NCBI GenBank assembly: GCA_012729535.1
Contig: JAAYCY010000064.1
Coordinates: 1-64,000, forward strand
From: Methanomicrobiales archaeon
GTDB lineage: Archaea; Halobacteriota; Methanomicrobia; Methanomicrobiales; Methanospirillaceae
Direction: 5' to 3'
DNA: 64,000 nucleotides
Shown: positions 13,619-37,789 of the stretch, piece after piece
How positions within the stretch are numbered: position 1 is the stretch's first letter
How the letters are laid out: every line of letters begins with the position of its first letter
Made by a program: the position numbers and the translations under genes
The notes under the pieces: model-generated
Told to the model about the DNA's origin: nothing
Databases searched by the model: none
Seen by the model: only the letters and a program-made list of their open reading frames with translations

Positions 13619-14488
13619 TTATCTTCTGATATTTCCTGAAAATATCATGATTGTTCCTAAAATGCTCACAATAAGGCTTGTGATTCCGATTGGTGACTGC
13701 GTCGGAGTTGGCGTTGCAGGAACCGGGGTTTTGAGAGGAGTTGTAAGATTTACCTGATCAGGTGTAGGTTCGGTGGTTATCACTCTGATTGGGGCTATTG
13801 TCTCTTTTGGTGTTACAACTGTTACTACGAACTCGTATTCCCCAATAAAACCCTTCTTGTCAGACATGCTTGCCTGATAAGTTCCCGGCATGGGTACTGG
13901 AAGGCTTGTTGAAAATTCTCCGGAATTGTCCGTATATCCTTTCTTTGTGATCATCTGTTCAGGCCCGTAGGTAAAGTGGTCCGGACCGAACACCCGCAAA
14001 GTTATAACACCATCCCCCATGTCTCTCATTCTTCCTGATATGGTCAGCGCCTGGTCCTGTGGCTGTGTATCGGGTGAGGTAATCTGGATTTCGTCTGATC
14101 TATCAGTAATCTGGATGATCCTTCGAGTGGTTGATGCTGAACCTAGCTGCTGCTCAACGAACAATTCATTGTCTGATATGATGTTGTGGACTTCTACTTT
14201 GTATTGCCCCTTTTCCAGGTGGCGGGTGTCAAAATCAGCCCTGAATAATTGCGTTGCATCGACAATAACACGAATCCGTCCAACTTCCTGAGATGTATAC
14301 TTGGCATAATAGAGCAGAATATCAAAATAGGTATCTTCAGGAAAAGTCGTGCTTCCGGTAACAGTCAGTGGTGTCCCTTTGACAATGGTTTTTGGAGCAT
14401 CAATTTCGATTATGTATCCAAGGACAATTCCTGGTATTAATATAAGAAGCAGAAAGCTGAAAATCAGACCTGCCCTGAATTGTTTCAT
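13619..14488 (-). CDS. surface-anchored Ig-like protein
   Basis: This 289-residue protein has an N-terminal signal peptide (LIFSFLLLILIPGIVLG), beta-rich repeats and a C-terminal membrane anchor (ITSLIVSILGTIMIFSG) followed by the short basic end NIRR. A Pro/Thr-rich spacer precedes the anchor (TPVPATPTPTQSP), as in many archaeal cell-surface proteins. Two or more Ig-like modules can be inferred: about residues 27-120 (IDAPKTIVKGTPLTVTGST) and 130-225 (TSPDTQPQDQALTISGRM). No function is recognised. It is similar in design to the secreted protein at 241. Confidence 0.6.
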   Translation of the reverse strand: MKQFRAGLIFSFLLLILIPGIVLGYIIEIDAPKTIVKGTPLTVTGSTTFPEDTYFDILLYYAKYTSQEVGRIRVIVDATQLFRADFDTRHLEKGQYKVEVHNIISDNELFVEQQLGSASTTRRIIQITDRSDEIQITSPDTQPQDQALTISGRMRDMGDGVITLRVFGPDHFTYGPEQMITKKGYTDNSGEFSTSLPVPMPGTYQASMSDKKGFIGEYEFVVTVVTPKETIAPIRVITTEPTPDQVNLTTPLKTPVPATPTPTQSPIGITSLIVSILGTIMIFSGNIRR

Positions 14489-14534
14489 ATATAGTGTTCT
14501 GATGAGCTGCTATATTGTGATGATGGATAGTGTC

Positions 14535-14873
14535 TCATTCACATTCCATTGCATATTGTCCGACAAGCCTTCTTGTAGTATTTTCCCCCAGGACTGCCTT
14601 AATTCTGTCCTCAAGCACGTGAAAATAATCCGGAGGTATGCAATGAAGGCTTTCTTCTCCTGTGAAAATCAGATCAACGAGATATATCAGGTCTTCTTCT
14701 TCGAGCTTTTCTATGCGATGCCTGAAATCATCAGCATTTTGCGCATAATGGTTCGCAACCGGGGGGAGCAGAGAGCGGTATGGCATCCCTGACCCGGAAC
14801 AGAATTCACCGGTAAATTCTGGTGCAAGAGTTTTTAGCAGTTGTATGTCACGTTCAGATAATATTCTTGGCAT
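14535..14873 (-). CDS. uncharacterised small acidic protein
   Basis: This 112-residue soluble protein was not recognised. It is rich in Glu, Asp and Leu, with an apparently helical middle (DFRHRIEKLEEEDLIYLVDL) and no membrane segment. Its start ATG at 14873 follows no strong upstream overlap, and it is transcribed divergently from the membrane protein at 14954. Codon use matches the neighbours, and the reading frame is clean over its whole length, so it is probably real. Confidence 0.6.
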   Translation of the reverse strand: MPRILSERDIQLLKTLAPEFTGEFCSGSGMPYRSLLPPVANHYAQNADDFRHRIEKLEEEDLIYLVDLIFTGEESLHCIPPDYFHVLEDRIKAVLGENTTRRLVGQYAMECE

Positions 14874-16875: not shown

Positions 16876-18126
16876 ATGTCGAAGGTAAATCCGTTTGAGA
16901 TGGCTCAACAGCAGCTTCAGGACTGTGCCAAGATCCTCAATCTTGAACAGGGCGTTGTTGACATTCTTATGCAACCGCAGAAACAAATCCAGGTTTCCAT
17001 CCCGGTCAAGATGGACAATGGTACCACCAGGGTATTCCAGGGGTTCCGTGTGCAATATAACAATGCGCTTGGTCCGTATAAAGGTGGAATCCGGTATCAC
17101 CCCAACGAAACAATTGACACTGTCCGTGCACTTGCAGCATGGATGACCTGGAAAGGAGCTGTTCTTGGTCTTCCTCTTGGAGGTGGAAAGGGGGGCATCA
17201 TCTGTAGCCCGAAAGAAATGTCAGATGGTGAACTGGAACGATTAAGCCGTGGATATATCCGTGCCGTCTGGCAGCACATCGGTCCTGATATGGATGTTCC
17301 TGCTCCTGATGTATACACAAACGGTCAGATAATGGCCTGGATGATGGATGAATACTCTGTCATCAGTGGAAAGAACCAGTATGGAGTTGTAACCGGAAAG
17401 CCCATTGTCGTTGGTGGATCCCTGGGTCGTGGTGATGCAACAGCGAAGGGCGGTATGTTCACCCTTCGTGAAGCAGCAAAGGAGCTTAACCTAGACCTTT
17501 CCAAGGCAACAGTAGCAGTTCTTGGTTTTGGAAACGCTGGTACATTTGCTGCAACTCTTGCACAGGATATGTTTGGATCAAAGGTTGTTGCAGTTACCGA
17601 CTCAAAAGGCGGTGTATATGATGAAAATGGTCTTGATATCAGTGCATTATCCGGACACAAAAGTAAAACACGTTCTGTCATCGGGTATAAGGGATTAAAA
17701 ACCCTTACCAATGAAGATGTTCTTGCTCTTCCTGTTGATATTATAGTCGCAGCGGCACCAGATGAAGGAGCAATCAATGGTAAAGTTGCTGCAACCATCA
17801 AGGCAAAGGTAATCTGTGAGCTTGCAAACGGTCCCACAACTCCGGAAGGGGATGAAATTCTTTATAAAAACGGAGTTCACGTGATTCCAGACTTCCTCTG
17901 TAATGCCGGTGGGGTTACGGTTTCGTATTATGAAATGGTACAGAACATGTACATGCATTACTGGACTATTGATGAAGTTTATGCAAAACTTGACAAAGCA
18001 ATGACCAAATCATACCATGAAGTTCTCTCAGCAACCAAAGAATACAAGATAAACATGCGTCAGGCAGCATATGTTGTTGCGGTAAAGCGTGTTGTTGAAG
18101 CAATGAAAGTTCGTGGCTGGGTATAA
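16876..18126 (+). CDS. gdhA: glutamate dehydrogenase (Glu/Leu/Phe/Val family)
   Basis: This enzyme of 416 residues, the normal length for hexameric GDH, interconverts glutamate and 2-oxoglutarate plus ammonium with NAD(P)H. The N-terminal substrate domain shows PYKGGIRYHP and the catalytic-lysine region GLPLGGGKGGI. The C-terminal Rossmann domain shows AVLGFGNAGTFAA at about residues 213-225. A strong ribosome binding site (GGGAG) sits 6 bases before the ATG. It ties directly to the 2-oxoglutarate made by the KorDABC operon at the right end of the window. A T-rich stretch after the stop probably ends the transcript. Confidence 0.96.
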   Translation: MSKVNPFEMAQQQLQDCAKILNLEQGVVDILMQPQKQIQVSIPVKMDNGTTRVFQGFRVQYNNALGPYKGGIRYHPNETIDTVRALAAWMTWKGAVLGLPLGGGKGGIICSPKEMSDGELERLSRGYIRAVWQHIGPDMDVPAPDVYTNGQIMAWMMDEYSVISGKNQYGVVTGKPIVVGGSLGRGDATAKGGMFTLREAAKELNLDLSKATVAVLGFGNAGTFAATLAQDMFGSKVVAVTDSKGGVYDENGLDISALSGHKSKTRSVIGYKGLKTLTNEDVLALPVDIIVAAAPDEGAINGKVAATIKAKVICELANGPTTPEGDEILYKNGVHVIPDFLCNAGGVTVSYYEMVQNMYMHYWTIDEVYAKLDKAMTKSYHEVLSATKEYKINMRQAAYVVAVKRVVEAMKVRGWV

Positions 18127-18238
18127 ACTGCCAATATTTCTATTATTTCCTTTTTTTAATCATTTTTTAATCGTTCTATCTCTTATACTTGTTTTCTGCC
18201 CGGATATTTCTCTCAAAACAATGCATTTAGAAAAATCC

Positions 18239-19417
18239 CTATGATCCCGGTGGTTGTTTTATCGGCGCTGAAAAACAGTACCTGGACAATGATTCAACAA
18301 GTTTTATGGTAACCTGGGAACCCAGTTCAGGTTCCAATGATTCAAGCCAGACATAAAAACCTACTTTTGGCGGAGTTTTTCGTTCATATTTGAAAGTCCC
18401 GTGTCCGTCATAGACCATTTTATAATATTCCTTCTTTTGTCTTGGTTTAAGATAAATGAGCGGACTGTAATCAGGAATATCAGCGGCAAGAATAATCCTG
18501 GAAAAGTTCGCATTCAATTCCTGAGCATTAAATGTTTGATCCCGGTATACAAATTTATAATGCTCACAAAGCCGTTTTGTTGTTGAAGGAAAAAGCCGGC
18601 CAAAGAGGATCTTTTTTACCAGCGTGTGTGTCCGATATGGAGAAGGAAGATCAATGGGTTCATCATTGTTTCCAAGATGGGAAAATACCCATTCTTTTTC
18701 CATATCATGGAATTGCTTATAGGGAAATGGAGCTGCCGTGATAAGTTCAGTTGAAAGACAGGTTTTTCCTGGGGGGAGAACCGGTTTTAATGACTGTTTA
18801 CTCCATGTTCCTGCGATATGTTTTCTGAAATTATCACATGAGCGGGTACAGATGGAAATATGTTCTTCAGATCCGAGGACTTTTCTCCCTCCTTTATAAT
18901 TTGTGAGAGGGAAGGATGTGACCAGAATGAATGTCACTGCTTTCTGGTTAAAGAGGTACCTGATAACCTGTTTTTTATAATAGATCTCCTGTAGAAAATC
19001 CTTCAGATCAGATGGAGATGTCACCACTTCAACGAAAATCAGTGTCCCATCCGGTTTTGTCATTAGGAGATCAAATTCAGCAAGGTCCTGTCCATTCCCC
19101 CGAATGGTAATATCCCCGTTTCTTGAGTAAAAAAAACCGTTCTGACCAAGTGCCGGAAAGGGTTTTTTGCCCCGTGCATCCGCTCCCTTCAGGATGACTG
19201 TTTTGATGGTGTCCGTCTTACTGGCGAGATCCAGAAAGAGTTCGTATGTGATCATTTCAAACCATCGTCCTTCTGCGGATCTCATGAAAGAAATATCTTC
19301 AGAAAAGAGATTCTTTTTTTCTAACCTGGACAAGTGCCGCAATGCCCGTTGAGCGTGCTCTTTTTTTGGTTGACAAAGTTTTTGGTTTGACCCGATCCAT
19401 TCGGCGAGATTTTCCAT
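18239..19417 (-). CDS. orphan protein with PD-(D/E)XK-like nuclease core
   Basis: This 392-residue protein was not assigned to a named family. Residues 50-145 resemble a PD-(D/E)XK phosphodiesterase fold: helix with E54 (EGRWFEMITYEL), D116 in AEFDLLMT and E130 in LIFVEVVT, then a helix with QEIYYKKQVIRYLF. The usual lysine of E-x-K is replaced (E130-V-V132), so activity is uncertain; K144 or other lysines could substitute. The C-terminal two-thirds (150-392) show no familiar domain. It stands alone, facing gdhA, with no methylase, helicase or toxin partner nearby. The start at 19417 has no competing upstream start. Confidence 0.5.
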   Translation of the reverse strand: MENLAEWIGSNQKLCQPKKEHAQRALRHLSRLEKKNLFSEDISFMRSAEGRWFEMITYELFLDLASKTDTIKTVILKGADARGKKPFPALGQNGFFYSRNGDITIRGNGQDLAEFDLLMTKPDGTLIFVEVVTSPSDLKDFLQEIYYKKQVIRYLFNQKAVTFILVTSFPLTNYKGGRKVLGSEEHISICTRSCDNFRKHIAGTWSKQSLKPVLPPGKTCLSTELITAAPFPYKQFHDMEKEWVFSHLGNNDEPIDLPSPYRTHTLVKKILFGRLFPSTTKRLCEHYKFVYRDQTFNAQELNANFSRIILAADIPDYSPLIYLKPRQKKEYYKMVYDGHGTFKYERKTPPKVGFYVWLESLEPELGSQVTIKLVESLSRYCFSAPIKQPPGS

Positions 19418-28936: not shown

Positions 28937-29716
28937 ATGGTTATTCATATGAGAACCGGGACGAAGATCTTCTGCGTGCTGATTTTTCTGGTAATTTTTT
29001 TCTTTTCGTCTCCTGTTGCGTGTGAAACAGAGGTTGCTGTGACTTCAGCAGATGCCGCCACACTCCCGAATAACATGACCGTTTCTGTTCAACTGAACCA
29101 GGAAGGTAAATATATCACGGCAATATTCAGGGGTGGAATGGGGCAGTCTCTGCTTAAATCGATACAGGTTGAAGTAATTCATTCTGACGGTTCAAAAGAC
29201 AGTGAAGTTTTACGAAACATTGTCGGTGACTCTGTCGTCATCGAAGGGTCTGGCTGTGGAGATCAGGTTACTGCAACAGCCTTCTTTAAAAATGGACAGA
29301 GTTATCAGATACTCGATGAACAAATGTATTATATTCGTGGGATATGTCCTGCTGACTTTACACCTTATTTAGATCCATGTGCTAAAATTGCTGCTTCACC
29401 TTATTTGAAGCCCAGCCCCGTCGAGGAGATCCCTGCAAACAAATCAGTTTTTATTCAGGCTAATGTGGATTTGAGATTTATTGAAGTCCAGTTCAGGGGA
29501 GGATTTGGTCAAAACCTCATAAAGACGATTGATGTCACCAGGATTGGTCCGGATGGTTCAAATGAAACTCAGATACTTGGAAACAGGGTAGGGGATGAAT
29601 TGATCTTTCCTTCCACGAATGGTTGTCTTGACCGGATAACTGCTAATGTATCATTTATTGATGGAACACGATACCATTTCTTTGATGAAATACTTCACAT
29701 CAGCAGGTATCATTAA
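28937..29716 (+). CDS. secreted protein with two tandem homologous domains
   Basis: This 259-residue exported protein has a signal peptide (IFCVLIFLVIFFFSSPVACE). The mature part holds two copies of a domain of about 85 residues. Copy one is near residues 48-135 (AIFRGGMGQSLLKSIQVEVI) and copy two near 170-258 (VQFRGGFGQNLIKTIDVTRI). Each contains FRGG-x-GQ, a GPDGS or HSDGS turn, a VGD and a single cysteine. The domain is not recognised. The start may be the ATG at 28937 or the ATG at 28949; both keep the signal peptide. It is separated from the rpo operon by a terminator. Confidence 0.7.
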   Translation: MVIHMRTGTKIFCVLIFLVIFFFSSPVACETEVAVTSADAATLPNNMTVSVQLNQEGKYITAIFRGGMGQSLLKSIQVEVIHSDGSKDSEVLRNIVGDSVVIEGSGCGDQVTATAFFKNGQSYQILDEQMYYIRGICPADFTPYLDPCAKIAASPYLKPSPVEEIPANKSVFIQANVDLRFIEVQFRGGFGQNLIKTIDVTRIGPDGSNETQILGNRVGDELIFPSTNGCLDRITANVSFIDGTRYHFFDEILHISRYH

Positions 29717-31016: not shown

Positions 31017-31121
31017 GATAGATGATTGGAAGACTCAGGAAATTAGTCTGTCGCATGATGGTTACCTTTGCGAGTTATCAAACTGTACTTATCTTTTGAA
31101 AGCAAACTCTTTCATGCTGTG

Positions 31122-31604
31122 ATGAATGGACAGGTACCTGACCGGGGAAATTATTGTAATACCTGTTCCATTTTACTGATATTATTTCTGGTAATTGCCA
31201 TTTTTTTAACCGGTTGTGTGCGTTCCAATACCGGTTATACTATTCGTCCGGAGGCTTTTGAGTCTCCACCAGAAGTAATTGCTGATCTGAATACCCAGGA
31301 GATATCTCTCCCATTAAATGAGAGCATGCTGGTTCGCTACCCCTGGACACCGGAAGATGGGAGATACTGGCGTGTATCAGTAACATCAGGATTATTTGTT
31401 GCGGGTGATCGGTATATTCCTCATCCTCCTGATATTCCAGTTGTAGAATCCGGAACTCGTGAATGGATGGTAAAAGTTATCTCTCCTGGAAAACAGTCAT
31501 TTGTTGCAACTTTAAGGCCACGGGCAAATGCCTGGAACCAGGAAATAATACAGAATACAATTACTGTTTTTGTCACGGAACATAATGGGCAGGGTGAGAC
31601 ATGA
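31122..31604 (+). CDS. lipoprotein with I42/chagasin-like domain
   Basis: This 160-residue protein has a lipoprotein signal (ILLILFLVIAIFLTGC), so it is probably tethered outside the membrane. The mature part resembles protease inhibitor family I42: a beta-start LNTQEISLPLNES, then TPEDGRYWRV in place of the NPTTGY-x-W loop, SGTREWMVKV, and PGKQSFVATLRP in place of the RPW loop. The ATG at 31122 is preferred over the TTG at 31068. The last 4 bases overlap the start of the PP2C sensor-phosphatase gene (ATGA), a strong sign of joint function. It may be a ligand-binding or protease-inhibiting accessory of that sensor; this is inference. Confidence 0.65.
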   Translation: MNGQVPDRGNYCNTCSILLILFLVIAIFLTGCVRSNTGYTIRPEAFESPPEVIADLNTQEISLPLNESMLVRYPWTPEDGRYWRVSVTSGLFVAGDRYIPHPPDIPVVESGTREWMVKVISPGKQSFVATLRPRANAWNQEIIQNTITVFVTEHNGQGET

Positions 31605-33715
31605 AATTTAGTGTGGCTGCGAAACTGCTGCTGGTAATGGTCCTGCTGACCAGCATCATTTTCATCATTATAGGTGGGATTTCCTGGATTATGATGGGAA
31701 ATCTTGGTGATTATGCCACAAAATCCAGCATGGCCCTTGGTGAAGAGGCGATTAGTGAAAGTACAACCGCTCTTGAAGACGATGCTGAAATCTATCTGCT
31801 TCGTTTAGCTACAGACCAGGCAGAAATTGCCGACATGGTTTTTGAACGGATAATTTCTGAGATGAATGTAATTAGTTCATACGGAAAAGAGCTTCAACAA
31901 GGCACGAATGTATCTGCAGAGCCACTTTATTTCAGCGATGAAAAACCTGAAAAACCTGGAGAATCAGCAGTAATCCACATACCTTCCTGGGTTCAGAAGG
32001 ATGAAGTTCTTGATGAGATTAACCAGATGAGTCCTTTCCAGTCTGTCTTTAATCCTCTTTTCCATGCCAACAACCGGCTGACTGCTCTCTATGCTGCTTC
32101 ATCATCTGGAGCAGTTCTCTTTTTCCCCTGGAATCCACGGCTAGATGAAAATTTTGATCCTCGGACAAGGCCCTGGTACCTGGATGCTTTGTCAACGGAG
32201 GGTCTTGTCTGGTCTGATCCGTATGTTGATGTCCTGGGTAATGGCCTGACACTGACCTGTTCTAAGCGACTAAGCAATCCAACATCAAATATGACCTGGG
32301 TTATCGGTTCGGATATCACCATTGAAACAATAAATTACCGGATTATCACGACCCAGCTGGGAGAAGACGGATATGCTTTCCTGATTAACCAGCGTGGTGA
32401 TGTAATATCACGACCCGGTCTTACTGCTGGTAGCACCAGATGGGATGAGTCATTTAACACAGAAAATTTTCTTAAAGGACCAAATACTGACCTGCAGAAT
32501 ATTACCCGGGAGATGATCAGTGGTCTTTCAGGTGTCAGCAGGTGCCATTTTCTTGAAGGTGATAAATATATTGCATATGCACCCATCAAAAGCGTTGGAT
32601 GGAGCATCGGACTGGTACTCCCGGTTGAGAGTGTTATCGCTCCTGCAGAACTCACAGGTAATGTAATACGCAATGCAAGCGAGCAGACACACACCCACAT
32701 TAAGGACCAGATGAGTTTTCTCCATTCTGTTCTAATAATTAGTTTTATCCTGCTTTTCGTGAGTATTATCGGGATTGCAATATTTTTTTCCCGCATTATC
32801 ACAGATCCCCTGCATCTGCTAAGTGAAGGTGTTAAGAGAATTGGTTCAGGAGATCTGCAGACTACGGTTGAGATTACATCCGGGGATGAATTTGAAGACC
32901 TTGCTGGAGCTTTTAACCGGATGACATTCGATCTTCGCAATTATATTCTTGAACTGCGGAGAACGACCGCAGAAAAGGAACGGTTCACCCGTGAACTGGA
33001 GATTGCACAGGGTATTCAACAGAGTTTTCTTCCGGATGTAATCCCGGATATCCCCGGAATTGAACTTGCGGTTTTTTCAAGCCCTGCACTAGAAGTAGGG
33101 GGAGATTTTTATGATTTCATACCGGTGGGAGATGATGAATGGGGTCTTGTTATCGCTGATGTGAGCGGAAAAGGTGTTCCAGCAGCTCTTTTCATGGCTC
33201 TTTCACGCACGCTTATCAGGGTGAGTGCGACCTGGAAGAGTGATCCTGCTGTGGCAATTACAAAAGCTAACTCCCTTATCCTTCGTGATTCAAAGACCAG
33301 CATGTTTGTGACCCTGTTTTACCTGGTCATCGATTCGCAGAAAAGGGAGATTACGTATGTAAATGCTGGTCACAATCCTCCTCTCCTCCTGACCCGGGAA
33401 AAGAAGAATGATATCACTCTCCTGAAAGCAGAAGGTGTTGCCCTTGGTATTATCGAAGAGATAGACCTTGCATCTGTTACGGTAAAACTCAGGGAAGGAG
33501 ACCTTGTTGCCCTGTATACTGATGGAATTACCGAAGCGATGAACGAGGCAGGAGAAGAATATGGTATGGACCGGTTTTCAGAAGTTCTTCAAAGATGCCG
33601 GGATAATACCCCTGAAAAGATGATAGATGAGATAAGGTCATCTATCAAGGCCTTTACCGGTACAACTCCTCAGTCAGATGACATTACCCTGATCCTGATC
33701 AGGGCCGGAGTATAA
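31601..33715 (+). CDS. Cache-HAMP-SpoIIE (PP2C) sensor phosphatase, RsbU-like
   Basis: This 704-residue receptor has TM1 (about residues 7-30), an extracellular double-Cache-like sensor (about 35-370, with RTRPWYLDAL and GYAFLINQRGDVISRPG), TM2 (about 373-396) and HAMP (about 393-445). A short coiled coil ends in the typical EIAQGIQQSFLPD. The SpoIIE phosphatase domain (about 480-704) has the metal ligands in GGDFYDFI, IADVSGKGVPAALFMA, LYTDGITEAM and SDDITLILI. Such proteins dephosphorylate STAS antagonists, and one is encoded at 35518. The gene is coupled to the I42 lipoprotein upstream. Its last 42 bases overlap the convergent MBL gene. Confidence 0.92.
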   Translation: MKFSVAAKLLLVMVLLTSIIFIIIGGISWIMMGNLGDYATKSSMALGEEAISESTTALEDDAEIYLLRLATDQAEIADMVFERIISEMNVISSYGKELQQGTNVSAEPLYFSDEKPEKPGESAVIHIPSWVQKDEVLDEINQMSPFQSVFNPLFHANNRLTALYAASSSGAVLFFPWNPRLDENFDPRTRPWYLDALSTEGLVWSDPYVDVLGNGLTLTCSKRLSNPTSNMTWVIGSDITIETINYRIITTQLGEDGYAFLINQRGDVISRPGLTAGSTRWDESFNTENFLKGPNTDLQNITREMISGLSGVSRCHFLEGDKYIAYAPIKSVGWSIGLVLPVESVIAPAELTGNVIRNASEQTHTHIKDQMSFLHSVLIISFILLFVSIIGIAIFFSRIITDPLHLLSEGVKRIGSGDLQTTVEITSGDEFEDLAGAFNRMTFDLRNYILELRRTTAEKERFTRELEIAQGIQQSFLPDVIPDIPGIELAVFSSPALEVGGDFYDFIPVGDDEWGLVIADVSGKGVPAALFMALSRTLIRVSATWKSDPAVAITKANSLILRDSKTSMFVTLFYLVIDSQKREITYVNAGHNPPLLLTREKKNDITLLKAEGVALGIIEEIDLASVTVKLREGDLVALYTDGITEAMNEAGEEYGMDRFSEVLQRCRDNTPEKMIDEIRSSIKAFTGTTPQSDDITLILIRAGV

Positions 33716-35413
33716 ATTTTCCCTTGGAAATGCCAGAATTACTCCTTCTTCATCCCTGGATGGCAGTTTTATAACTCTTCCGCCGGCATACCCGACTGTT
33801 CTGATGAGCGATGGAGATAAGGGAAGCAGCGGATGACAATCCATGTCTGGATTTATTAAAATAAAAACCTCATCCATTTCCGGTTTAATCTCAATTGATA
33901 TATTCCTGGCATCGTATGTCTCAAAGTAATTTATTATTGTATTAAAAAAATCTGATAACCGGTCTTCATCGGCATACATACAAATCGGATTATCAGGATC
34001 AGTTATGTGGAAAATCGCAGTTTTGTGACATTGATAGTCTGACAACCTGCAAAGAAGTGCCTTTTGAAAAAGTTTGTGGTTATCTCCGGATTCAAGGAGT
34101 TCTTCATCGCTTATCAGTAATTTTGTCCGGTTATTGCTTATTGAATGAATGAGATCTGCCGGATTTATGGAAAAAATCGTTGCAGATGGCATAACTCCCC
34201 TGATTGTACTGAGAAAATCAGAAAACAGGTGTTCACAACGCCTGATGAGAGTTACGTCAATGTATCTGTTCATATCCTCTAAAGGCAGGTATGATGAAAT
34301 TTTCTGAAGGACTTGAAGTGTTTTTAATACAACCTCAATCTCTTTTTTTGAACCGGATGTAAAGGCGGCGTAAAAATCGTTGAAGCTGGATAACAATTTA
34401 TCAATTTCCTCATCCTGTATGATTCCTGCAATTTTTTCTGCCAGTTCATACTCTTCCAGTTCTTCCATGTAGAAACTGAGAGCCATAATCCTTCCGGCAA
34501 GAACCGGTATGATACGGTGAGCTTCATCGATAAGGTCCATCGCATGATGCATGGAGATATTTACGCGGTTGCGGTCAAAGACACCAATATCTGGGGTGGT
34601 TTTTAGGTCTCTTTCGATACCTGGTAAAATTTTCTCTATCATTTCCCTGGTCAGGGGATTTCCATGTCCGGTGCAAAGTAATGAAAGCTGGTTGTTGTTA
34701 AGGATCCATCGGATTTTTCTAACTGTTCGGGCAAGCTCTACCGGGTCATATCCGATTATGCCGGCAACCCCCGGATTTGTTGCAAAAGGGATATCTCCGA
34801 GATGAATGAACTCACCAGCTGTAATAGCCATGCTATCTGGTGAATGTCCGGGAACATCCCAGAATACAAGTGATTGTCCCCTCGGAAAAATGAGTTCTTC
34901 ACTCTTCAGACAAATATCATCTGATATGGATAGTTCATTATGGAAAAGCTGAAAACCTGGTAGAATATGTGAAAAATTACAATCAGTTTTTCTCTTAGAA
35001 AAAATTCCGATATCTGCCCTGAAGGAAGGGACGGGAAGGTCTACCAGTTTTGCCTGCAGATATTCGGCATCTGCATTTATTAGAGGTTCCATTGCTGCAG
35101 TATGGCAAATATAAACAGGTTTTCCAACAGACTCAATCCGTCGGTCAACAAGTCCCTGGTAAATATGATCAAAATGCGCATGTCCAAAAATTACAATAAT
35201 GGGACTATTCCTGGTAATTTTTTCAGAGTACAGGACATTCAGAACAGTATCCATCATTTCCTGCTGTGCACCGGTATCAATGAGGACAAGATATCCCCCG
35301 ATATTGAGAATAAATATATTTGAGCCTGTAACTGAAGGTTTTCTGATAACCGGAAAGATTCTGCAATCCTTTATTCCTCTGACCTCCTGCCAGCTTTCAT
35401 TAATAAGTCCGAT
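33674..35413 (-). CDS. MBL-fold protein with degenerate histidine-kinase-type ATPase tail
   Basis: Residues 1-240 or so form a metallo-beta-lactamase fold with H78-x-H80-x-D82-H83 (GHAHFDH), VPGHSPDSM, LGDIPFA and CTGHGNP. A helical middle (about 265-395) leads to a C-terminal region resembling a worn HATPase domain (ADEDRLSDFFNTIINYF, then IEIKPEMDEVFILINPD, and GYAGGRVIKL); the ATP-lid glycines are poorly kept. The first ATG in frame (35257) would remove the first MBL strands (NIFILNIGGYLVLIDTGAQQ). Coding similarity continues upstream to an ATC at 35413, which follows AGGAGG by 8 bases, and an in-frame stop lies just before it. No AUG, GUG or UUG is available in that stretch. The start is therefore uncertain. 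Confidence 0.75.
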   Translation of the reverse strand: MGLINESWQEVRGIKDCRIFPVIRKPSVTGSNIFILNIGGYLVLIDTGAQQEMMDTVLNVLYSEKITRNSPIIVIFGHAHFDHIYQGLVDRRIESVGKPVYICHTAAMEPLINADAEYLQAKLVDLPVPSFRADIGIFSKRKTDCNFSHILPGFQLFHNELSISDDICLKSEELIFPRGQSLVFWDVPGHSPDSMAITAGEFIHLGDIPFATNPGVAGIIGYDPVELARTVRKIRWILNNNQLSLLCTGHGNPLTREMIEKILPGIERDLKTTPDIGVFDRNRVNISMHHAMDLIDEAHRIIPVLAGRIMALSFYMEELEEYELAEKIAGIIQDEEIDKLLSSFNDFYAAFTSGSKKEIEVVLKTLQVLQKISSYLPLEDMNRYIDVTLIRRCEHLFSDFLSTIRGVMPSATIFSINPADLIHSISNNRTKLLISDEELLESGDNHKLFQKALLCRLSDYQCHKTAIFHITDPDNPICMYADEDRLSDFFNTIINYFETYDARNISIEIKPEMDEVFILINPDMDCHPLLPLSPSLIRTVGYAGGRVIKLPSRDEEGVILAFPRENLYSGPDQDQGNVI

Positions 35414-35421
35414 ATTCCTTC

Positions 35422-35427
35422 CCTCCT
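35422..35427 (-). promoter_or_regulatory. strong ribosome binding site before a non-standard start
   Basis: AGGAGG on the minus strand ends 8 bases before an in-frame ATC (35413-35411) of the MBL-fold gene. Spacing and strength are ideal, whereas the first in-frame ATG is over 150 bases away. A later in-frame ATT (35404-35402) is also possible but too distant. An ATG at 35432 just upstream is in another frame and hits a stop after ten codons. Confidence 0.5.
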
Positions 35428-35517
35428 GGCATTGTCAACTTTTCGTAAATCATTAATCCTATGGAAATTGAGTTGTAACCATACATCATAGTAATGATAA
35501 CAGGTGAACATATTTTC

Positions 35518-35868
35518 ATGGATAGTAATCTAGAGATAACTGACCGAATACAAGCCGGAATTATTATTCTTGATATATCCGGAAGGGTGGATGCTGCAAC
35601 CTCATCAAAAATGGAAGAAGAGTTAGGAAAAAAGGTTGATTCTGGTGCTATCAATATTATCCTGAATCTTAAAGATTTAAGTTATATCAGTAGTTCCGGT
35701 CTTCGTGTTATTCTGGCATCGCTAAAAAAAGTAAAGTCTTCAGGAGGGAAGATAGCTCTTGTAAGTCTGCAGCCAGGTCCTGCCGAAGTATTCAAAATGA
35801 CTGGTTTTGACAGATTATTCCCGATATGTGATACGATTGATGGGGCACTTGAACTATTCCAGGTGTGA
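35518..35868 (+). CDS. STAS-domain anti-sigma-factor-antagonist-like protein
   Basis: This 116-residue protein is a stand-alone STAS domain like RsbV/SpoIIAA. The start ILDISGRVDAATSSKMEEEL and the phosphorylation loop YISSSGLRVIL are intact; the middle serine of the SSSG run is the expected phosphoacceptor. The ATG at 35518 is preferred because AGGTGA lies 10 bases before it; an in-frame ATG at 35494 is an alternative. The next gene, an RsbW-like ATPase, starts 28 bases on. Together with the SpoIIE phosphatase this completes the kinase, antagonist and phosphatase of a partner switch. Confidence 0.9.
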   Translation: MDSNLEITDRIQAGIIILDISGRVDAATSSKMEEELGKKVDSGAINIILNLKDLSYISSSGLRVILASLKKVKSSGGKIALVSLQPGPAEVFKMTGFDRLFPICDTIDGALELFQV

Positions 35869-35896
35869 CTTTAAGAATATTTTACCAACGCATATA

Positions 35897-36310
35897 ATGA
35901 CGACACATCAGATCGAACTATCAGATCCTAAAAATTCGGTGAAAATTCTTTCTGGTTTTTTATCTGAGGTACTTGAAGGTGAATTGGTACCTTTTGAAGT
36001 TGACAATGCTATGCAGCTTGCCGGCGAAGAAGCGATTGTGAATATCTTCAAACATGGGTACAAAGGATCAGAGGGACCTGTGATCGTGAAATGCACGATT
36101 GAGCATGGTCGCGTGACTCTTATCATCCAGGATGAAGCACCATTTTTTAATCCTCTTTCCCTACCTCCACCTGATGTCGATGCTGCGCTTGAAGACCGAA
36201 AGATCGGAGGTCTGGGGGTATACCTCATACGCTCACTAATGGACGATGTGAGATATGAACAGACAGAAAAAGGGAACTGTCTCATCATGGAAAAAGCATA
36301 TTCGTCCTGA
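35897..36310 (+). CDS. RsbW-like ATP-binding serine kinase (HATPase)
   Basis: This 137-residue single HATPase domain is of the anti-sigma-kinase type. The N-box is QLAGEEAIVNIFKHGY, the G1 region is IIQDEAPFFNP, and the G2 region is GGLGVYLIRSLMDDVRYE. Such proteins phosphorylate the STAS partner and, when unphosphorylated STAS is present, release their target. The ATG at 35897 is the natural start; the frame is open further upstream only by overlap with the STAS gene. No sigma factor exists in archaea, so the downstream target must differ from bacterial systems. Confidence 0.9.
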   Translation: MTTHQIELSDPKNSVKILSGFLSEVLEGELVPFEVDNAMQLAGEEAIVNIFKHGYKGSEGPVIVKCTIEHGRVTLIIQDEAPFFNPLSLPPPDVDAALEDRKIGGLGVYLIRSLMDDVRYEQTEKGNCLIMEKAYSS

Positions 36311-36365: not shown

Positions 36366-37184
36366 ATGATGGAAGATATGTCAGAGCAATATGTTCATGG
36401 TTATTCGGAAAAGGAGAGTCAACGTCTCTCAGATCAGGCTGGTACTCTCACCCAGATTATTCATCATGATTCTATCTTTCCTCCGGGTAGCAAAATTCTC
36501 GAAGCCGGTTGTGGAACCGGGGCACAAACCAGTATCCTTGCACAATTAAATCCTGGCTGCGAATTCACATCGGTAGATATATCTGATTCGTCTCTTGAAA
36601 TTGCACGAAAAAGAATCTCTGCTGCAGGTATAACCAATGTAACTTTTGTACATCTGGATATTATGGATGAAGTGTTTTTTACCGATCGTTTTGATCATGC
36701 TGTTTTTTGTTTTGTTTTAGAACACCTGAAAAAACCGGCAGAAGCAGTGATGAAGGTTATGCAGATGGTAAAATCCGGAGGTACAATTACTGCGATTGAA
36801 GGTGATCATGGTTCGGTCTGTTTTCATCCTGAATCTGAAAAAGCCCTTCGCACTATAGAGTGCCAGGTCATCCTCCAGAAAATGGCCGGGGGTGATGCCT
36901 GTATCGGAAGGAAGATCTACCCTCTGCTGGTTTCTGCTGGTCTTTCAAACGTGATGGTCACTGCGAGAATAGTCTATGCTGATTCAGGAAAATCCAATCT
37001 TGTGGATGGGTTCACAAGAAAAACCTTCATTGCCATGATTGAAGGTGTGAGAAAACCATCAGTTGCGGCAGGTCTGATTACAGAGAAAGAATGGGAAGAA
37101 GGAATATCGGACCTGTACCGTTCTGCAGCAAAGGATGGGACTTTTAGCTATACTTTTTACAAAGGAACTGGAATTGTCCCTTAA
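36366..37184 (+). CDS. SAM-dependent methyltransferase
   Basis: This 272-residue class I methyltransferase has motif I as ILEAGCGTGAQTSIL (about residues 44-58), the acidic end of strand 2 in TSVDISDSSLEIARK, and motif III/IV in FDHAVFCFVLEHL. The second half carries a cap region with no obvious metal or substrate motif. The substrate cannot be read from the sequence. It follows the RsbW-like gene by 55 bases on the same strand and may belong to the same signalling unit, though it could also be independent. Confidence 0.88.
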   Translation: MMEDMSEQYVHGYSEKESQRLSDQAGTLTQIIHHDSIFPPGSKILEAGCGTGAQTSILAQLNPGCEFTSVDISDSSLEIARKRISAAGITNVTFVHLDIMDEVFFTDRFDHAVFCFVLEHLKKPAEAVMKVMQMVKSGGTITAIEGDHGSVCFHPESEKALRTIECQVILQKMAGGDACIGRKIYPLLVSAGLSNVMVTARIVYADSGKSNLVDGFTRKTFIAMIEGVRKPSVAAGLITEKEWEEGISDLYRSAAKDGTFSYTFYKGTGIVP

Positions 37185-37339: not shown

Positions 37340-37789
37340 ATGGATCGGATTGTTACGTTCCTTCTCTTACTGGTTTCAGCATTACTGCTGGTACCTGGAT
37401 GTATCGCAGACGAACAGGCAGCTGTCGAAACAACTGAAATTGTTGCAGATGTTGAAGTTACTGAAGAAGCAGTAGAAGAAGCAATTGCATTTGATTATAC
37501 TGCAGATATGAACACCACTGCACTTAACATGACATCAGGTCAGGTCGTTCTTGTTCAGCTTCCGGAAGATGAGACTACCGGATTTGAATGGAATGCAACC
37601 CTTTCTGAAGGTCTTAACCTTGTCAGTGAGGATCATATGGTTGCTGAAGGTATCGAGAATGTAACCGCTTTCCACCAGTGGTACATCACCGCAGTAAACG
37701 CTGGAGAACAGATTTTCAACAGTGTTGAGATGAAAGAAGATTCAGAAGAGATTGGAACTGAATACACTCTTAACATCCTTGTCGAGTAA
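37340..37789 (+). CDS. second lipoprotein with I42/chagasin-like domain
   Basis: This 149-residue lipoprotein has the signal FLLLLVSALLLVPGC, followed by an acidic Val/Glu-rich linker of about 35 residues and an I42-like domain. The inhibitor loop region is clear: VQLPEDETTGFEWNATLSEG, then HQWYITAVNAGEQ. The third loop (RPW) is not conserved. I42 proteins inhibit cysteine proteases in protozoa and bacteria. In archaea they may act on surface or secreted proteases, or serve as a binding module. A terminator hairpin with a 7-base stem follows. Confidence 0.78.
   Translation: MDRIVTFLLLLVSALLLVPGCIADEQAAVETTEIVADVEVTEEAVEEAIAFDYTADMNTTALNMTSGQVVLVQLPEDETTGFEWNATLSEGLNLVSEDHMVAEGIENVTAFHQWYITAVNAGEQIFNSVEMKEDSEEIGTEYTLNILVE

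Follow-up and report, generated by a model that had tools for sequence, protein, structure and literature searches.

A probable Methanospirillum form of the methanogen partner switch with a putative fourth component, an MBL-pseudokinase protein

Described partner switches and the locus in the window

Proteins resembling SpoIIAA, SpoIIAB and SpoIIE have been described as a signature of the Methanomicrobiales whose target is not known, and genes for the anti-sigma, anti-anti-sigma and serine phosphatase proteins were recorded in M. labreanum, M. marisnigri and also M. hungatei (among them Memar_2467-2469 and Mlab_1450-1452; Anderson et al. 2009, PMC2686161). The same set, likewise without a target, appears in the genome paper of M. 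marisnigri (PMC3035220), and the text of the M. hungatei JF1 genome paper (PMC4704411) contains no match to 'sigma' or 'STAS'. Here we analysed a locus in a window of 64,000 nucleotides, the whole stretch of contig JAAYCY010000064.1 considered, which agrees with the set of Anderson et al. in its three protein kinds, its archaeal order and its sigma-less setting. The suggestion of a sequence-only reading that this is an undescribed system therefore fails for the core, which is already in both earlier papers. The passages of Anderson et al. on these genes make no mention of an MBL-pseudokinase, a STAS-fusion family or a sensor exchange, and the statement there that the proteins do not occur outside the order is superseded in the present sample, where the kinase is also found in families f10 and f22 of the phylum. 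The locus and its flank comprise:

31122..31604, + strand: I42 (chagasin-type) lipoprotein, lipobox LTGC; alternative TTG start upstream at 31068
31601..33715, + strand: U, a dCache_1-HAMP-SpoIIE (PPM) membrane phosphatase with intact Asp motifs
33674..35434, - strand: MBL-pseudokinase protein, an N-terminal metallo-beta-lactamase (MBL) domain and a C-terminal half of ~300 aa modelled as DHp+CA-like
35518..35868, + strand: V, a single-domain STAS protein of anti-anti-sigma type, loop YISSSG; alternative start at 35494
35897..36310, + strand: W, a serine kinase of RsbW/SpoIIAB type (GHKL ATPase, PF13581)
36366..37184, + strand: class I methyltransferase, adjoining W in the genus only; outside the core
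37340..37789, + strand: second I42-type lipoprotein (PF09394, 1.1e-9), syntenic in the genus; outside the core

In domain types and catalytic motifs the locus is like the Bacillus systems RsbU/RsbV/RsbW and SpoIIE/SpoIIAA/SpoIIAB, and RsbW and SpoIIAB (6m36, 1th8) are the closest solved relatives of W. Unlike Bacillus, it has no sigma factor, carries other sensors on U, includes an MBL component and has one W for several U. Pseudomonas SiaABCD offers a second likeness, with a membrane HAMP-PP2C phosphatase, a kinase, an anti-anti-sigma-like protein and, as its output, an enzyme: the GGDEF cyclase SiaD is activated when dephosphorylated SiaC attaches to its stalk (PMC8457831, PMC7647112). The window U scores 91 bits against the SiaA model NF038263, far under the cut-off of 700, and the locus proteins scanned contain no GGDEF domain; in place of SiaD stands the MBL-pseudokinase, in a putative output role.

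All five elements proposed from sequence were recovered at or near the positions first given, and their domains and the catalytic motifs of U, V and W were confirmed, and the claim that this archaeon has the complete partner-switching set holds. The five-gene neighbourhood expected in relatives is likewise present, both in a Methanospirillum hungatei MAG (L092), together with the methyltransferase and I42 genes, and in one congener (L047); this conservation makes the locus more than a chance assembly. Most relatives share a different layout, in which U, a 5TM-5TMR_LYT-SpoIIE protein of ~455 aa, lies between V and W. In the window and in L047 the V-W interval lacks U, and a Cache-HAMP-SpoIIE phosphatase with its I42 lipoprotein is found beyond the MBL gene, the 3' end of which overlaps that of U by 42 nt on the opposite strand. 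This shows a sensor exchange in the genus, the Cache-HAMP-SpoIIE protein and lipoprotein replacing the usual 5TMR_LYT-SpoIIE. Downstream genes of 155, 228 and 396 aa recur in the vicinity of V-U-W in a different family (L084, L085), suggesting that the site is old. We consider the locus to be, probably, the genus-specific Methanospirillum form of the known methanogen switch with an extra fourth component. Upstream, window positions 28937-29716 encode a secreted 259 aa protein of two similar halves without a Pfam match, and an ORF of the same size occupies the corresponding place in L047.

The I42 domain of the first lipoprotein is well above threshold (PF09394, E 8e-11, 42.5 bits versus a cut-off of 27.2), with inhibitor activity as a prediction, and orthologues occur at the equivalent position in L047 and L092. 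Among the loci examined, no other genus has an I42 lipoprotein beside U. The proposed ATGA coupling of lipoprotein and phosphatase is real in the window, where the TGA stop overlaps the phosphatase ATG (ACATGA, 31601-31604), but is not conserved, the genes lying ~15 nt apart in the M. hungatei MAG. A part for the lipoprotein in input is possible, yet would be confined to the genus in the loci examined; judging by adjacency in three species, it may present a ligand to the Cache domain or shield that ligand. Further I42-type lipoproteins, in one or more copies, lie downstream of the methyltransferase in the genus (window 37340-37789; L092 1434-2564), and the window genome has four I42 genes, two of them at the locus.

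Phosphatase, STAS protein and kinase

U matches SpoIIE (PF07228, 2.6e-54), dCache_1 (3.5e-17) and HAMP (2.3e-13) and retains the motifs VGGDFYD, DVSGKG, YTDGITEA and QSDDIT, and so carries the metal-binding Asp motifs of a SpoIIE-type PPM phosphatase. V matches PF01740 (6.4e-23) and, above cut-off, TIGR00377 (1.4e-26); its residues Y56, I57, S58 and S59 are invariant in 16 relatives, which marks it as a single-domain STAS protein with a predicted phosphorylatable Ser loop. W is matched by HATPase_c_2 (PF13581, 9.5e-29) and contains N, G1 and G2 boxes, with E48, N52, D82, G107, G108 and G110 invariant in 23 relatives, and thus has the N-box Glu/Asn, G1 Asp and G2 Gly of a GHKL serine kinase. 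Its best PDB relative is RsbW (6m36, E 1e-16), followed by SpoIIAB. From these family assignments it very probably follows that the switch operates by the chemistry of kinase, phosphatase and partner exchange.

Across the order, W occurs in 85 of 150 genomes and U, as SpoIIE, in 87; both are present in 84 (p 3e-37; Fisher tests here are uncorrected for relatedness and, the genomes not being independent samples, their p-values overstate significance), and in the three genomes with SpoIIE alone all its matches are weak. U is present in 1 to 5 copies per genome, W in a single copy in nearly all of these genomes. The window genome fits this, with four SpoIIE phosphatases (E < 1e-10) versus one strong RsbW, the only strong stand-alone gene of that type found in it; its remaining SpoIIE phosphatases are unlinked and bear other sensors (5TMR_LYT on contig C74, three PAS domains on C60). 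These counts show a layout of many phosphatases to one kinase.

Several side features of W and its partners were seen. W-type ATPases in relatives are fused to a Cthe_2159-like repeat protein, CHASE4-HAMP-PAS-SpoIIE, HAMP-SpoIIE, DUF2254 or a GNAT acetyltransferase (fusion loci L118 6321-8771, L119 5158-8583, L121 8206-10188, L127 7868-9748, L128 7200-8741 and L083 2149-3648). Contig C52 of the window genome (L090) encodes a second stand-alone STAS protein (14360-14782), ~3 kb from a CheC-like protein (17811-18473); this STAS protein might serve the single W as another partner.

The MBL-pseudokinase protein and its inheritance with the switch

The MBL protein had been called correctly, but its gene extends beyond the ATG at 35257. 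This first ATG falls within the domain; the frame runs 59 codons further upstream and is open from 35434, with the first MBL strands inside it and the region of homology beginning at about 35428. The extension (35257-35434, minus strand) contains no ATG, GTG or TTG codon, so either a rare start codon is used or a single base of the assembly is wrong. Within it, an ATC codon follows an SD-like GGAGGG; there is also an out-of-frame ATGCCAGGAGGGAAG, similar to the (M/L)PAGN with which relatives start. Over the full frame the MBL domain matches PF00753 at 8.7e-8, and all seven metal ligands (HxHxDH, H, D, H) are invariant in 16 sequences.

In AlphaFold2 models (pLDDT 81), the MBL domain is followed by a C-terminal half that resembles the DHp+CA region of a histidine kinase. 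Matches to the MBL domain dominated a fold search with the whole length. Modelled by itself, the C-terminal half had 131 matches in the PDB (E < 0.001); the best 50 of these are histidine kinases or related mitochondrial kinases, headed by CpxA, HK853 and YycG and including the mitochondrial BCK kinase, with modest TM-scores of 0.3-0.5. No phospho-acceptor His is conserved among relatives in the first helix, the N-box Asn is replaced by Glu or Asp in most sequences, and G1 and G2 boxes are absent. A DHp+CA fold without acceptor His or ATP boxes makes this, as modelled, a pseudokinase, that is, a degenerate histidine-kinase half. The kinase-like ATPase remnant proposed earlier is thus supported in fold and lacks support in sequence: neither Pfam nor profile comparison with W detects such a remnant, and descent of this half from W found no support (profile comparison probability 1.5%).

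The MBL protein is found in 64 of the 150 genomes of the order, and 63 of these 64 carriers have W (Fisher p 5e-22, overstated in the same way); the remaining one, G142, is an incomplete genome in which the match is partial. The phylum sample has 38 carriers, every one with W; four of them lie outside the order, and in three of these four the MBL gene is beside V-U-W. A scan of genome contigs with the MBL alignment gave at least six loci. Conversely, W-less genomes within the genera g2, g3, g4, g5 and g16 also have no MBL protein. The two genes are less than 5 kb apart in 22 genomes and at most 16 kb apart in 37 of the 45 genomes that have both on one contig. Wherever V and MBL lie on the same strand, the MBL frame, from its candidate start, overlaps the end of V (11 of 11 loci; 14 nt in ten and 17 nt in the other), an overlap that implies translational coupling. 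The window itself has the two genes in divergent orientation, not co-translated.

On this comparative evidence the MBL protein appears to be a real, well-supported fourth component, inherited with the switch and with a putative role in it; that it belongs to the switch is very likely, and it is a stronger lead than was at first supposed. It had been suggested that it may shape input; its dependence on W and its overlap with V speak just as much for an output or a co-regulator. Of the 85 W genomes, 22 have no MBL protein; in these, either W acts through some other output or the role of MBL is optional. Elsewhere in the window genome, on contig C60, a PAS-PAS-PAS-SpoIIE protein adjoins a stand-alone 227 aa MBL protein (L087 7512-10372), its second SpoIIE-MBL pair.

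A second W-dependent family exists in which STAS is fused to a conserved domain of ~300 aa (alignment A5: L053 8824-10131 and 12 relatives). It adjoins W in several genera and occurs in 60 genomes, 59 of them with W; neither the window genome nor its congener yielded a copy. Beyond the STAS part, the protein matches nothing in Pfam or the PDB. Some copies contain in-frame stops, TAG in G040 and TGA in G031.

Output of the switch and alternative targets

In the mechanism that we propose, W would phosphorylate the Ser of the YISSSG loop in V. A ligand bound by the Cache domain outside the cytoplasm, and one that the I42 lipoprotein may present or shield, would activate U, which would then dephosphorylate V, and unphosphorylated V would change partner. 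Phosphatases with various sensors (Cache, 5TMR-LYT and PAS) would feed the one W, making it a hub. The likeliest local partner of V would be the MBL-pseudokinase: by analogy, V or W would control it as SiaC controls SiaD, binding the DHp-like helical stalk and so turning the metallo-hydrolase on or off. Given the dependence of MBL on W, its translational overlap with V and its long helical stalk, an enzyme partner is preferred to a transcription factor encoded at an unlinked site. We regard MBL as an effector, and not a second input, only tentatively; more tentative still is the full proposal that the enzyme is the dedicated output, gated directly by V or W through its dead histidine-kinase half.

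Rather unlikely, in our estimate, is an arrangement in which W sequesters an unlinked transcription factor or enzyme, with MBL as an accessory input, for example one that senses a metabolite or redox state and modulates V or W. Bacterial W targets are often unlinked, and relatives in which W is joined to GNAT, DUF2254, beta-helix or SpoIIE domains show how diverse its use is. In addition, 14 of the 150 genomes have W but lack both MBL and the STAS fusion, and some lineages must therefore have a different output. Against such a target, the only genes kept beside W across genera are U, V, MBL and the STAS-fusion family, and the copy numbers of TFB and TBP, by function the nearest analogues of sigma factors, do not vary with W. 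Candidates for a conserved linked target gene (an ABC transporter, PAS proteins and others) were rejected, each being confined to single genera.

The argument made from the outset that a sigma factor is excluded as the output is upheld, since archaea have none (PMC2686161). TFB, named then among possible targets of W, now looks less likely, and we consider it very unlikely that W acts on this general transcription factor or on a TBP. Formally the idea parallels anti-sigma factors, a single-copy TFB would give a global brake, and W is present in 7 of the 8 genomes with extra TFB repeats; but nearly every genome has one TFB regardless of W, and most W-less genomes, too, have two TBPs. M. hungatei itself has one Tfb and two TBPs (PMC4704411), and archaeal sigma-like proteins are described, in the passages of Anderson et al. 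2009 that treat them (PMC2686161), as being without the regions bound by SpoIIAB. An expansion of TFB or TBP as the trace of a sigma-like target was rejected, copy numbers not tracking W.

Least probable is that MBL is a hitch-hiking neighbour with no functional link: it lies on the opposite strand in the window and MBL-fold genes are common in the genome, but its co-occurrence with W within and outside the order, its overlap with V and its persistent linkage led us to reject a chance neighbour.

Its inheritance with the switch makes the MBL-pseudokinase the first concrete candidate for the target of this switch in sigma-less organisms. If the reading in which V or W gates the MBL enzyme is true, both the output class and the use of a pseudokinase would be ones not described before for switches of the RsbU/V/W type. 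The role of the methanogen 'anti-sigma' proteins has been open since 2009, and the two W-dependent families, the MBL-pseudokinase and the STAS fusion, provide concrete, testable partners for them.
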